A stretch of DNA of 28,046 bases, taken from positions 1 to 28,046 of the IMG/VR virus record IMGVR_UViG_3300046000_006242; one strand, given 5' to 3'. Within the stretch, counting starts at the first letter, position 1. The number at the start of each line of letters is the position of its first letter. Shown here piece after piece: positions 1-28,046 of this stretch. A program made the position numbers and the translations under genes. This DNA comes from a virus. Below the pieces are notes generated by a model. It was given only the letters and a program-made list of their open reading frames with translations. It made no database searches and was not told the DNA's origin.

Positions 1-313
1 GAAATCCAAGGAGTAATTAGGAGTATAAAAAGATTCCTTACCACGGGGGCCGAAGGACGATGAGGACGTTCTTCCGTGGTTTGCACCCTGTTCCTATTCG
101 ATGAGGGGAAAGAAAAACTAGCTGGTAGCAGTTATTATCGTCCTTATCTCCTTAAGAGAGATATAAAAGACTGTTGGTAAGTACCTTCTGGTGCAGGAGA
201 TGGTGTGGAAGCATCGTCCCGAGGAGGACGATGATCGTCCCGAATGTGAGCGCCAAGCTGAAACCCATGCCCTTCTTCCGGATTCCATGGCATTCTCAGG
301 ACGATCATCGTCC
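1..313. other. Non-coding left end with hairpin and iteron-like repeats
   Basis: No convincing gene is visible here. Open frames crossing this stretch are rich in Ser/Arg runs generated by the GGACGAT repeats and have no ribosome binding site. It contains one nested hairpin (40-80) and seven of the eight GGACGAT/ATCGTCC heptamers. If the molecule is circular it joins the non-coding right end (27935-28046), giving an intergenic region of about 430 bases between the end of the replication operon and the terminase genes. That would be a natural place for an origin, packaging site or control region. Confidence 0.6.
40..80. other. Nested hairpin with purine-rich loop
   Basis: ACCACG (40-45) pairs with CGTGGT (75-80). 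Inside, GAAGGACG (52-59) pairs with CGTTCTTC (67-74) with a single G-T wobble, leaving the loop ATGAGGA (60-66). The GGGGCC at 46-51 is an asymmetric bulge. About 14 base pairs in 41 bases is a strong fold. One GGACGAT heptamer (55-61) lies in the inner stem and loop. There is no U-tract after it on either strand, so it is not a standard terminator. It could be an origin structure, an RNA element or a protein-binding cruciform. Confidence 0.55.
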
Positions 314-348
314 TCATTCCTTCGACGGACCAAAGGGCGTGGGACGAT
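55..348. repeat. Iteron-like cluster of GGACGAT / ATCGTCC heptamers
   Basis: The heptamer GGACGAT occurs on one strand or the other at 55-61, 137-143, 213-219, 226-232, 234-240, 299-305, 307-313 and 342-348. Two pairs form the same 15-base palindrome: GGACGATGATCGTCC at 226-240 and its reverse complement GGACGATCATCGTCC at 299-313. Copies at 212-219 and 226-233 also form an inverted repeat with a 6-base spacer. Eight copies in about 300 bases is far above the roughly 0.04 expected by chance. The mixed direct and inverted arrangement fits binding sites for an initiator or repressor. The last copy lies within the small lipoprotein gene. Confidence 0.7.
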
Positions 349-502
349 CGGCAGCGGCGTGATGGCCTGCGGTAGCACCGTCAATAAGTCCGGATGTATA
401 GGCTCCGAGAACCGCATCAGATCGCATCAGTTTATCGGGAGCGCACCCTGCCGTGACGAGTGCCATGAAAAGGAAAACCCTGTGCAATAAGGCCGCAGCC
501 AT
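314..502 (-). CDS. Small putative lipoprotein (62 aa)
   Basis: The first 20 residues form a bacterial lipoprotein signal: a basic/hydrophobic start, the core VFLFMALV and the lipobox-like TAGC, so Cys20 would be lipidated after cleavage. The mature part is about 43 residues with no recognised domain. The gene starts 34 bases after the stop of the helicase gene, in the same direction, and would be the last gene of the replication operon. No strong ribosome binding site is visible. Thr at the -3 position of the lipobox is tolerated but not typical. It could be an envelope protein of the lysogen, for example in exclusion. The call rests only on the signal sequence and position. Confidence 0.45.
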   Translation of the reverse strand: MAAALLHRVFLFMALVTAGCAPDKLMRSDAVLGAYTSGLIDGATAGHHAAADRPTPFGPSKE

Positions 503-536
503 GCACAGGGTGATCTCTTGCGGAAGTATGATGATC

Positions 537-1640
537 TTAGCTCACGCGCCACTTGCGGTCGTTCTTGCCACCTACTCGCTCCAGCTTGATCGTACCCAGC
601 TCCTCACCGAAGCGGAAGACGCGGCCATTGTACCGGGCAAAGAGCCGGGACATCTTCGTCCTCGAGGAGGAATAGATCTCAAACTCCTTCGTCTCCCTGT
701 CCACCTTCCCCTTGATCTGCTCATCGAAGAGCCCCCGGTCGCGGCAGATCCAGATCACGTCATCGAAGGAGACGCCTGCGCGGCACATATACTCCAGACC
801 GTCGCGGAAGACCCCCTCCGCCATCACCTTCACGAGATCGCGCATATCGGCAGCGTCAGGATCGCCGAAGTCCTCCGAGTCGGGCTTCCGCAGCGGATCA
901 CCGAACCCTGCAAACTCCACGATCCCCGCGATCACCTTACTCCACCCCTCGAAGCCTACGAGCCGCGACGAGCAGGGAGGACGACCGGCCTTGTCCCAAG
1001 CATGAACGAGTGACCAGAGAGCCGAGAGAATCGCGAAGCGAACCTCCGGACGCGCGAGATACTCAGCGCCCATAGGCCTCTCGATCTTGCGGGCCTGCGG
1101 ATCGGCCTCCTTCTGGAAGAGATCAATGAAGATCGCCCGGCGAGCGATGTCAGACGAGACCTCCGCCTGGTTCGAGGTGAACATCAGCATCGTCTGCTTT
1201 GCGACCTCATACTTGGCCGAGGATCCCAGCCGCCGCACCGAGACCACCGAAGACGTGGCAAACTGCTCCAGATAGGCCGAGTCGATCTTATCCTTCACAT
1301 TGTCAAAGATCACCGCGTCCGATCCAGCCAGCACCTCCGAGTCCAGCACCTTCTGGAGTTCCTCCTTCTCCTCCGGGAGTGCTCGCATCGAGGCAAATCC
1401 CCTCACCGGCACCTCCACTACCATCGCCAGCAGAGACTTGCCTGCGGCGGGACCATTGGCATTCCAGATGACCAGCGGCACCTGATCCTCCTCCTTGAGC
1501 AGGGAAGAGGCAAAGCGTGTCACCATCGCCGCCACCTGACAGGAGAGAGAACGTCCCCCGTCATCGGCGAAGGGGAACTCATGGAGGAGATCCGCGATGT
1601 AATCAACGGCTGCCTCCTTCGGCATTAAATCATAGGTCAT
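537..1640 (-). CDS. SF3-like replicative helicase / primase-helicase C-terminal ATPase
   Basis: This 367-residue protein has the ATPase core of phage and plasmid primase-helicases. Walker A is around residues 61-70 (GPAAGKS, Lys68), a hydrophobic Walker B is at 109-115 (AVIFDNV), and sensor 1 is at 152-158 (LMFTSNQ, Asn157). DIARRAIFIDL at 164-174 supplies the likely arginine finger and matches the end of the SF3/D5-type ATPase domain. The C-terminal third may be a DNA-binding region. Expected role: ring helicase unwinding phage DNA at the origin, working with the primase at 3418-4620. Usually these domains are in one polypeptide; here the ATPase has its own gene. The start follows the upstream TAA after one base. 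Confidence 0.82.
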   Translation of the reverse strand: MTYDLMPKEAAVDYIADLLHEFPFADDGGRSLSCQVAAMVTRFASSLLKEEDQVPLVIWNANGPAAGKSLLAMVVEVPVRGFASMRALPEEKEELQKVLDSEVLAGSDAVIFDNVKDKIDSAYLEQFATSSVVSVRRLGSSAKYEVAKQTMLMFTSNQAEVSSDIARRAIFIDLFQKEADPQARKIERPMGAEYLARPEVRFAILSALWSLVHAWDKAGRPPCSSRLVGFEGWSKVIAGIVEFAGFGDPLRKPDSEDFGDPDAADMRDLVKVMAEGVFRDGLEYMCRAGVSFDDVIWICRDRGLFDEQIKGKVDRETKEFEIYSSSRTKMSRLFARYNGRVFRFGEELGTIKLERVGGKNDRKWRVS

Positions 1641-3417: not shown

Positions 3418-4620
3418 CTACTGGGAGTGGAGGTCCGAGAGCACCTGCGCATCCCGTCGTAGCTCCTCCGCCATCGCGGGGAACTTCGGGTTGCATGGTG
3501 CGTAAAATTCCAGCCTCTCCGCGCAGCCGCGCATCTGCTCCGCATCCTCCGAGTGGACAGCCGCCTTGGCAGCCTCCACCGCATCCCGCAGCGCATCCCG
3601 GACAGGAGGCCGATCCATGATCCTCTCACCGAAGGGAGGCCACGGATTCACATAGAGCAGCTTTTGCAGTTGCCCCTTCTCCGCGCGGTACTGCTGCGGC
3701 AGCCGCGTCAGCCGGACAGCCGTCAGTGCCTTTGGATCGGCACCGATCCGAGCGAGAGAGTCTTTCATGGACCGCGCCCAGGCATCCCACTCCACCTTCG
3801 ATGAGGGGCCTGAGAGAGCCGACATCCCAGTGCCAGCACCCGGCACACGGATCAGAGCGTGGACAGACCGACCCCCCGACGAGTAGATCGCAGAGATCGG
3901 CAGAGTGGACTTCGCCAGGGCAGCCAGCCAGAGGCGCGGATCGGCCTCATCAGATTCGAGGAGAGCATACTTCCAGCGAGTGACAGACTCCTCCGAGCGT
4001 CGGGAGGGCTTCCCTGTGCGCGGGTTCGGGTACGACTCACCCGAGACAGGGTTCGCGAGATACCACATCCCACGGTGCCCGGCAGCAGGGACAGCCTCAT
4101 CCGGCCAGAGAGCCTGACCCTGCGAGCGATCATCCGAGAAAATCAGCACCTTCTCCCCCGAGTAAAGGAGCGAGAGGAAGCCCGCCGAATCCAGCAGCGC
4201 TGGGTCGGCATACGAGCGCGAGGCGAACCAATCCAGCCGGGGGCGGAACTCCCCCGCCAGAGCCGCAAGGGCCGCAGGGTCGAAGCTCACCTTCTCCACC
4301 GGCTCCGGGGCCGACCACTCAGGTTTCACGTTTCCGGTTTCAGGTCTCCGGTTCTCTCCGATCAGATAGCCTGTCCCCTTCGAGGAAGAGCTACCCGCAG
4401 CCGAGCGGAGCTTATAGGCCAGATCCCGATCCGACCACGGGGGAGCGCAGCGCAGATTATACTCCGAGAGGAGCGCCATCGCCTCCCCCTCACCCAGGGC
4501 GAACCCATGGACCAGCGCACAGGCCACTGAGAAGAGCGCATCATGACCCCCCGATCCAGAGACCGCAGCATCCATGCGCGAGACATAGCGCGAAGCCCTT
4601 TCGGCGATGGTCATACTCAT
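3418..4620 (-). CDS. Archaeo-eukaryotic-type DNA primase with N-terminal PriCT-like domain
   Basis: Residues 1-75 resemble the PriCT helical domain (GGHDALFSVACALVHGFALGEGEAM, then YNLRCAPPWSDRDL and KLRSA). The middle carries the AEP primase motifs: acidic motif I in YALLESDEAD (about 218-227), the SGGRSVHALI motif with its histidine (about 248-257), and the basic motif in VRLTRLP (about 302-308). The order, PriCT before the catalytic core, is unusual because PriCT normally follows it. Expected role: primer synthesis for phage replication. It starts by ATGA overlap with the 35-codon gene upstream and is followed by the linker and helicase genes, so primase and helicase functions are on separate chains. 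Confidence 0.75.
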   Translation of the reverse strand: MSMTIAERASRYVSRMDAAVSGSGGHDALFSVACALVHGFALGEGEAMALLSEYNLRCAPPWSDRDLAYKLRSAAGSSSSKGTGYLIGENRRPETGNVKPEWSAPEPVEKVSFDPAALAALAGEFRPRLDWFASRSYADPALLDSAGFLSLLYSGEKVLIFSDDRSQGQALWPDEAVPAAGHRGMWYLANPVSGESYPNPRTGKPSRRSEESVTRWKYALLESDEADPRLWLAALAKSTLPISAIYSSGGRSVHALIRVPGAGTGMSALSGPSSKVEWDAWARSMKDSLARIGADPKALTAVRLTRLPQQYRAEKGQLQKLLYVNPWPPFGERIMDRPPVRDALRDAVEAAKAAVHSEDAEQMRGCAERLEFYAPCNPKFPAMAEELRRDAQVLSDLHSQ

Positions 4621-5770: not shown

Positions 5771-6225
5771 CAGTTGGAACTCCTGTTGACGTGGAGGAAG
5801 CGGCCGATCCGATGATGGATTTCTACCGCAGCCGCAAGAGCCCTATGGACAGTCTGAAGATATTCTACGTTCCCCTGCTTGATTGCCCATTCCCACCGGG
5901 GGGCGAGCTTATCGAGCGACTTAATGAATGCGTCCGTAGTGGGCAGATCGAACGAGTGATCCTTTTCTGACTCTGATTTCAGAAACTTAACAAGGAACCC
6001 CAGTTCCGTGATGATCTCACCCTCGATGGACACGGCTTCATCGGGCCCCCATGACTCGAAGGCAAATAATCTGAGGTCGTTCTCGATCTTGACGGATGCC
6101 GCCTTGAGGGCCTTCACCTTCATCCACCCGTCCTTCAGCTCCTCGCGGGATGTCGTTGGATCAATGACTGCCCCTTCCATGGAATAGGTTATCTTCCCTT
6201 CTATTAGTGTGAGTTGTTGGTTCAT
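5770..6225 (-). CDS. Hypothetical protein (151 aa)
   Basis: No domain recognised. The protein looks mainly helical and rich in charged residues, with helices around 28-60 (SREELKDGWMKVKALKAAS) and 70-95. The C-terminal helix TVHRALAAAVEIHHRIGRFL is amphipathic. It starts by ATGA overlap with the HTH gene at 6222-6812 and is followed directly by the DUF551-like gene. Its place suggests an early accessory function. Confidence 0.6.
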   Translation of the reverse strand: MNQQLTLIEGKITYSMEGAVIDPTTSREELKDGWMKVKALKAASVKIENDLRLFAFESWGPDEAVSIEGEIITELGFLVKFLKSESEKDHSFDLPTTDAFIKSLDKLAPRWEWAIKQGNVEYLQTVHRALAAAVEIHHRIGRFLHVNRSSN

Positions 6226-6812
6226 TTCTTTGATTTTTTAAGGTAATCCTTCAGTTTTTGGCGGTGGCTCACTGCAGTTGGTTTGGTTTGTTTTTTCCGG
6301 CGCGTTTCCCATCCCTTTTTGGATGTTGTCTTGTAGATCTTGCTGGCCTCGGTGCCCTTCATCCCCCGGCTATGGATTCCCCAAATGCGCTCAAAGTGCT
6401 TCGCCCAATGACAATAGATGGCTCTACTCAGGCGGGTTTTCTTTGCGATCTCGTTCATACTGATGGCCCCAAGCTCACAACGACTGCTCTGTAGCATATG
6501 AAGCAACGTCAGAACCCTGACTCCTACGGCCTGCGGGATCGCTGAATTTAATCCTCCGAATGTCTTTCCGTTCTCATCCCGTTCTGGGATGAGCGCCTCC
6601 AATGTTTTCAGAAGCACATTCCCAGAAACTCCCTCCCGTGAGGTGAACTCATGGTTTTCCAGAATCTCCTGCGCCTCTGGATCATCTTTGTTTTCAAGCG
6701 CCCACTTGAGATCCATCGCCGAGGCATAGTCAGGGGCATGAATGCCTGCCTCCATCTCGTCCCGCTGACGAACCATGAATGCCTCTGCTGCCTGGGGGGA
6801 TGCCGAGATCAT
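6222..6812 (-). CDS. Putative HTH DNA-binding protein (196 aa)
   Basis: Residues about 118-145 (SMNEIAKKTRLSRAIYCHWA) form a helix-turn-helix, preceded by a helical segment VGVRVLTLLHMLQSSRCELG typical of a winged-helix start. The final 35 residues are strongly basic (KKGWETRRKKQTKP...KLKDYLKKSKK), giving non-specific DNA contact. The N-terminal 100 residues are acidic and unrecognised. It begins with an excellent ribosome binding site (GGGAGGTG, four bases before ATG) and overlaps the stop of the previous gene. Its role may be early gene control or replication initiation, binding the left-end repeats for example. That last link is inference. Confidence 0.6.
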   Translation of the reverse strand: MISASPQAAEAFMVRQRDEMEAGIHAPDYASAMDLKWALENKDDPEAQEILENHEFTSREGVSGNVLLKTLEALIPERDENGKTFGGLNSAIPQAVGVRVLTLLHMLQSSRCELGAISMNEIAKKTRLSRAIYCHWAKHFERIWGIHSRGMKGTEASKIYKTTSKKGWETRRKKQTKPTAVSHRQKLKDYLKKSKK

Positions 6813-27934: not shown

Positions 27935-28046
27935 TGCTTCCGTTGGATGTCAAAGGAACGGAACGGAATGTGATCGGAACGGAAGGAAACAGATGGACTT
28001 CCCTAATGTCCGGACAAGATACTCTCATAAGTAAAGAGATCGGCCA
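27935..28046. other. Non-coding right end with GGAAC repeats and palindrome
   Basis: This segment carries two blocks of GGAAC-like pentamers (27955-27969 and 27976-27990), whose starts are 21 bases apart, two helical turns, and the perfect palindrome TGTCCGGACA at 28007-28016. No gene is visible. It lies immediately upstream of the terminase genes and would join position 1 in a circular molecule. A cos/pac site or late promoter region would be expected here; no clear sigma-70 promoter is seen. Confidence 0.55.
27955..27990. repeat. GGAAC pentamer direct repeats, possible TerS binding site
   Basis: Block 1 is GGAACGGAACGGAAT and block 2 is GGAACGGAAGGAAAC, with a spacer of six bases between them (GTGATC). 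They repeat with a 21-base period, so the blocks face the same side of the helix. Arrays just upstream of terS are typical recognition sites for the small terminase subunit. Confidence 0.55.

Follow-up and report, generated by a model that had tools for sequence, protein, structure and literature searches.

A heptamer block beside a phage helicase gene is a probable replication origin with iterons matched by winged-helix residues of the helicase

The phage genome and its replication group

The window, meaning the whole stretch of DNA analyzed here, is a complete IMG/VR record of 28,046 bp. All genes considered lie on the minus strand: terS, terL, and portal occupy the right end, a replication group the left end, and tail genes the middle part. 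The replication group includes a helicase-like protein (positions 537 to 1640, minus strand) and a separately encoded primase-like protein (3418 to 4620, minus strand). The replication operon is closed by a terminator-like hairpin (477 to 511, minus strand) with 10-bp arms and a T-rich downstream stretch, equivalents of which occur in relatives. A small open reading frame with a lipobox-like Cys (VTAGC) runs on the minus strand from 502 to 314, starts inside the 3' arm of this hairpin, and is present in some relatives only. A tRNA search of the window returned none.

A DNA-level search of annotated phages yielded no relative, nor did two scans of genome contigs. Among named phages, the nearest is Akkermansia phage Moulinsart, which has a similar gene order and shares 30% identity in the helicase and 31% in the large terminase. 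Because of this affinity, the host is probably a verrucomicrobial bacterium, and the window probably represents a small phage that infects Verrucomicrobia. The comparisons below draw on 30 relatives (24 from a first scan and 6 from later scans), or 31 genomes with the window.

A cluster of heptamers after the helicase gene

The original prediction described eight copies of GGACGAT/ATCGTCC clustered at 55 to 348. All eight exact copies were found, starting at 55, 137, 213, 226, 234, 299, 307, and 342, where ∼0.05 copies are expected in 294 bp (Poisson estimate for at least eight copies, ∼1e-15). Four further GGACGAT copies are scattered outside the cluster, giving 12 in the 28,046 bp; dinucleotide shuffles of the record gave a mean of 4.67 copies and a maximum of 10.

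Four of the copies form two 15-bp palindromes, pair a (GGACGATCATCGTCC, 299 to 313) and pair b (GGACGATGATCGTCC, 226 to 240). Both are real, and each is the reverse complement of the other. They had been termed mirror-image palindromes; their type is in fact the ordinary two-fold one, and they differ only in the center base. Jointly, they provide 20-nt inverted arms that stand 52 nt apart. Pair a consists of exact copies, and its position is kept in relatives with other heptamers. Pair b lies 73 bp from pair a in the window, 73 to 74 bp in close relatives, and 84 to 85 bp in the most distant ones. Around palindrome a (245 to 350), a CCC-N3-CCC motif stands upstream and a GGG-N3-GGG motif downstream, and the middle three bases of these motifs do not co-vary.

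The remaining candidate iterons lie to the left of pair b. Iteron c is an exact copy (213 to 219, minus strand) 21 bp from b, and iteron d2 is likewise exact (137 to 143, minus strand), as is e2 (55 to 61, plus strand). Comparison with relatives added three diverged copies that the first reading had overlooked, at positions where several relatives carry true copies: c' (GGAGAT, 196 to 201, plus strand), matched in several relatives by an exact inverted copy; d1 (GGAGAT, 146 to 151, minus strand), whose counterpart in several relatives is a full copy at a distance of 9 bp from d2; and e1 (GGACGTT, one mismatch, 64 to 70, plus strand), 9 bp from e2. Between the left and right sets lies an AT-rich stretch (154 to 183; 21/30 A/T) that is a candidate unwinding element; only 0.8% of the 30-bp windows of the record reach this content. 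The eight exact copies do not all appear to belong to one set. The copy at 342 to 348 is probably coincidental, because it falls inside a conserved CGTCCCxCGCCC stretch that mostly does not follow the heptamer in relatives, matching it only in some, and it was therefore left out of the site layout.

The block is kept in relatives, often with another heptamer

All 30 relatives carry the same noncoding block after the helicase stop codon, with the layout kept and the heptamer often different. Absence of the repeats from relatives had been named as grounds for discarding the prediction. The literal GGACGAT is indeed missing from many relatives, and those genomes carry another heptamer at the same places. 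Eight heptamer types, distributed by lineage, were found among the 31 genomes: GGACGAT (the window and eight other genomes), GGACGGT, GGACTAT, CGACTAT, CGATGGT, CGACTGT, GGCAGGT, and TGCAGGT. Within a single genome, most heptamer copies change together. In most regions there are several exact copies of the own type, with counts reaching nine, and other types are near zero. The CGACTGT type is weak, with one or two exact copies per genome and the remainder diverged.

Several copies of one short sequence thus occupy a single noncoding place at positions conserved among relatives. Measured from the left arm of palindrome a, the sites lie at 0 and 8 to 9 (a), 73 to 74 and 81 to 82 (b; 84 to 85 in the most distant group), 94 to 95 (c), 113 (c'), 161 to 164 (d1), 170 to 173 (d2), and about 243 to 256 (e). 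In most genomes, the AT-rich stretch is located between c' and d1, and an AT-rich 30-mer (at least 21 A/T) occurs among the iterons in every genome tabulated, although its offset is not always equal. In two genomes only (L004 and L010), an extra hairpin with long C/G runs (CCCCCCCC ... GGGGGGGG) lies in the first 110 bases after the helicase stop codon, between helicase and block.

The palindromic motif alone is uninformative, since a pattern search of viral contigs gave more than 100 matches, and those checked had at most four copies nearby. No comparable array was seen in the stretches of Akkermansia phage Moulinsart that were read by eye.

Palindromes with co-varying repeats could also be hairpins of a noncoding transcript, the repeats changing together to keep their pairing. 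The minus strand of the block does fold better than shuffles (z = −3.6), and the CCC-N3-CCC and GGG-N3-GGG motifs around palindrome a recur in most relatives compared. However, within each genome the same sequence is found in separate hairpins and in single direct copies, and these change in concert, which pairing alone does not need. Pairing also leaves the match with helicase residues described below unexplained, and no Rfam family matches the block. We consider a structured RNA very unlikely.

Genome ends and neighboring elements

Two related contigs (G013 and G020) have ends that overlap each other, by 9 nt (GTGGTCGTA) and 12 nt (GTTGGGCGCACT), respectively, in this region, and the start of the window lies within about a base of the aligned end site (the 28046/1 joint). 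Together, these observations indicate cohesive ends just beyond the repeat block. The terminal repeats of four other contigs (G002, G015, G016, and G024) are those of circular assemblies. On the linear genome, as read on the coding strand, the candidate origin would thus be at the right end, and it would come to lie beside terS once the genome has circularized, presumably via the cohesive ends.

Given this location, the small terminase might instead read the block as a packaging site (cosB- or cosQ-like), as the block ends near the cohesive genome end and terS comes next. Yet no column of the small terminase tracks the heptamer in the portion that all rows cover, and a different repeat (TTCCGTTCC) and an invariant element (GTAAGGAATC) are closer to cos and terS. 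A packaging role for the heptamers is therefore hard to credit.

Other elements of the region were noted in passing. In relatives, a nearly invariant element, GGTAAGGAATCTTTT (28 to 42, minus strand), stands between the genome end and the iterons. Akkermansia phage Moulinsart (L209) has it as well, in its 5' region (about 315 to 328); it is possibly part of cos or of a late control signal. Just upstream of terS (about 27945 to 28000), there is a second repeat family, TTCCGTTCC/GGAACGGAA, whose sequence differs in the G017/G019 group, where the small terminase is 43% identical. This repeat family and the small terminase may be another co-changing pair.

The helicase carries a predicted winged helix

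The helicase (367 amino acids) aligns ungapped over its whole length in all relatives. It contains a P-loop (GPAAGKS, residues 63 to 69), an acidic motif (DN, 113 to 114), TSN (155 to 157), and RR (167 to 168), and these residues are invariant or nearly so in relatives. Its PHROG matches are to phage proteins, among them a DNA polymerase/primase family. An SF3/D5-like helicase would be expected to have a P-loop, an acidic motif, a sensor Asn, and an Arg finger together with a significant family match; the motif residues are conserved here, and the match to DUF5906 falls below the cutoff. A sequence search of the PDB gave nothing meaningful.

The C-terminal end is predicted to form a winged-helix DNA-binding domain (residues 255 to 367; 540 to 878, minus strand). 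Modeled as the domain alone with 20 sequences, it gave a confident AlphaFold2 prediction (mean pLDDT, 90.9; pTM, 0.84), whereas the full-length model was poor (pLDDT, 43). In the domain model, a recognition helix (residues 324 to 337; 630 to 671, minus strand) is followed by strands and a wing loop (residues 357 to 362, GGKNDR; 555 to 572, minus strand), i.e., the succession of recognition helix and beta wing of a winged helix. Structural neighbors of the domain are largely winged helices of the Fur, Zur, ORC, and PadR types, with Z scores of at most 6, which are weak taken alone. Foldseek retrieved nothing significant for the domain from the PDB; among viral models, the best match was a Caulobacter phage protein, whose group had matched the helicase in sequence comparison as well. 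A search for other proteins with the same domain returned only the same helicases.

Helicase residues follow the heptamer

The last 45 residues of the helicase differ in step with the heptamer. In a set of 22 distinct helicases, base 6 is fully predicted by residue 328 (A goes with Thr; G with Ala, Gly, Cys, or Ser) and base 1 by residue 361 (G goes with Asp or Glu; C with Asn or Lys; T with Ala). Each of these residues is the sole such column of the 367. The start of the recognition helix and the wing are the usual DNA-reading parts of the winged-helix fold; the two specificity positions therefore fall where this fold ordinarily contacts DNA. Residues 324 to 329 as a whole vary with the heptamer, and bases 3 to 5 are explained by several helicase columns, partly via shared ancestry, which makes this the loose part of the code. 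These bases may be read by some combination of helix positions 324 to 329, inseparable here from ancestry. The distant relatives with TGCAGGT (61 to 64% identity) and the phages with GGCAGGT have a PKSxSR helix in common.

The match recurs along the phylogeny. On a tree built from helicase codons 1 to 310, the heptamer changes at least nine times, bases 1 and 6 require five parsimony changes each, and the matching residue classes change equally often. When heptamer labels were shuffled in the close clade, the observed result was reached in 1/5000 shuffles, a procedure that ignores relatedness.

A deflationary explanation is that the winged-helix codons and the repeats are merely neighbors, co-inherited by recombination and free of any functional link. 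One genome provides a clear cassette exchange of this kind: the helicase of G008 is for the most part like that of G001, but its C-terminal end and the repeat block are like those of G007, so that domain and origin can move as one piece. The cleanest comparison is that of near-identical helicase pairs. Over codons 318 to 367, pairs with the same heptamer have 0 to 14 synonymous and 0 to 1 amino acid differences, while pairs with different heptamers have 8 to 17 synonymous and 4 to 8 amino acid differences. No contrast of this kind is seen elsewhere in the gene. At similar synonymous divergence, amino acid changes thus appear only with a differing heptamer, nearly all of them at the helix and wing. 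Linkage likewise leaves unexplained why the repeat copies within a genome change jointly. We regard mere linkage as improbable in the extreme. Most likely, judging from these comparisons, the start site and its reader evolved together.

Other readers were also considered. Another 16 proteins, each matched in six or more genomes of the clade, were scanned, and no column that follows the heptamer was found where columns were comparable. For the large terminase and the tape measure protein, not one column was covered in all rows, and the comparison extended to only part of the small terminase and of the portal. The small terminase, the primase, and the other shared proteins were accordingly rejected as readers. 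Among the binders proposed originally, the helix-turn-helix protein at 6222 to 6812 cannot be a general reader of the sites, because only 2 of the 24 relatives have a match to it, and these carry different heptamers. The RHH proteins, likewise proposed, were considered only collectively, through the scan of shared proteins. The helicase, also among those proposed, is favored by the tracking of bases 6 and 1 by winged-helix residues 328 and 361. As judged by covariation alone, it would have the matching specificity of a cognate initiator.

A probable replication origin

We interpret the block as the replication origin of the phage and the heptamers as iterons for the winged helix of the adjacent helicase, a reading to which we assign a probability of roughly 85%. 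The original prediction had offered an origin with iterons or a multisite operator at the end of the replication operon. The comparative evidence, with eight heptamer types that each have matching helicase residues, favors the former, and the block does lie between the end of that operon and the terminase genes.

This position would equally suit an operator at which the helicase, or another protein with the same sites, controls the late operon (terS onwards) or its own operon, with replication starting elsewhere. GC skew, which had been suggested as a check, lends no support to an origin at the block. In most near-complete relatives, the coding-strand skew passes from plus to minus at the block, the opposite of the usual bidirectional origin, and returns about 7.5 kb upstream, where the usual skew minimum lies and where, on this evidence, a start would be favored. 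The one-strand gene order may explain the reversed sign. Against an operator, the protein that matches the sites is helicase-like and not a regulator, the AT-rich center and the sites 9 bp apart resemble known origins, and the accessory helix-turn-helix protein is missing from most relatives. On balance, an operator is unlikely.

For the block as an origin, the best reading of the comparisons is that a self-loading initiator helicase binds the iterons. The heptamers would be bound by the winged helix at the C terminus of the helicase, whose gene lies immediately upstream, with the recognition helix (residues 324 to 329) reading bases 4 to 6 and the wing (residues 359 to 361) reading base 1. 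Several subunits would occupy the iterons of either orientation, direct or inverted, that flank the AT-rich stretch on its two sides, assemble into rings, melt this stretch, and begin unwinding, whereupon the separately encoded primase would prime replication. Because specificity would reside in a short domain beside the origin, the two could change or be exchanged together, which may have given rise to at least eight specificities in this phage group. A more far-reaching proposal, to which we give even odds, is that eight or more origin specificities arose from few substitutions in one winged-helix domain, follow a readable code (residue 328 for base 6 and residue 361 for base 1), and spread by exchange of domain-plus-origin cassettes, so that related co-infecting phages replicate only their own genomes.

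The initiators of these phages form a natural series: they are near-identical, their differences fall mainly at positions likely to contact DNA, and each is paired with an origin sequence of its own. In this series, the joint change of an initiator and its full set of binding sites becomes directly testable. From the match, one can also predict between which phages, or satellites with identical iterons, replication could be shared or hijacked.

Comparison with known systems

Several known replication systems resemble parts of this arrangement. The alpha protein of phage P4, which itself has a C-terminal winged helix, is a helicase-type initiator, and its crr lies directly downstream of the alpha gene with type 1 repeats in direct and inverted orientation, some of them 9 bp apart. 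In P4, however, primase and helicase are fused, whereas here a stand-alone helicase of 367 amino acids is accompanied by a separate primase (3418 to 4620). The P4 repeats are octamers rather than heptamers, and a second repeat site, ori, lies at a great distance from crr in P4, in contrast to the one cluster found here. An hhalign comparison of the helicase with the single P4 alpha sequence, based on a low-diversity alignment, gave no meaningful match.

A comparison has been drawn between P4 alpha and a replication protein that has a winged helix at its C terminus (PMC4234260). In the crenarchaeal plasmid pRN1, a replication protein with a helicase and a C-terminal winged helix is encoded upstream of an origin that contains a stem-loop with a 21-nt stem and a 58-nt loop (PMC4234260). 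This stem-loop recalls the 20-nt arms and 52-nt gap of the present palindromes, although no iterons were found in pRN1.

The staphylococcal pathogenicity island (SaPI) Rep and SCCmec Cch2 recognize a site just downstream of their own gene via the C-terminal domain (PMC7581432). As here, these origins follow the helicase gene and consist of several short iterons; they belong to staphylococcal islands or cassettes with other iterons, whereas the present system belongs to a tailed phage with cohesive ends. By analogy, the helicase may work like P4 alpha and SaPI Rep, a likeness in mode of action.

Specificity changes among close relatives also have precedents. Closely related geminiviruses differ in their iterons, each set being read by its own Rep (PMC12548392), although this Rep is a rolling-circle initiator of single-stranded DNA viruses. 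A further parallel is the Vibrio cholerae satellite PLE, in which the RepA DNA-binding domain varies with the origin, modules are swapped, and, by experiment, only cognate pairs replicate (PMC8263062). A nuclease driving specificity change, as in PLE, was not identified in the present phage group. The initiator DNA-binding domain co-varies with the origin in both systems, but RepA belongs to the RepA_N family and forms two specificity groups, whereas the phages described here have a helicase and eight.
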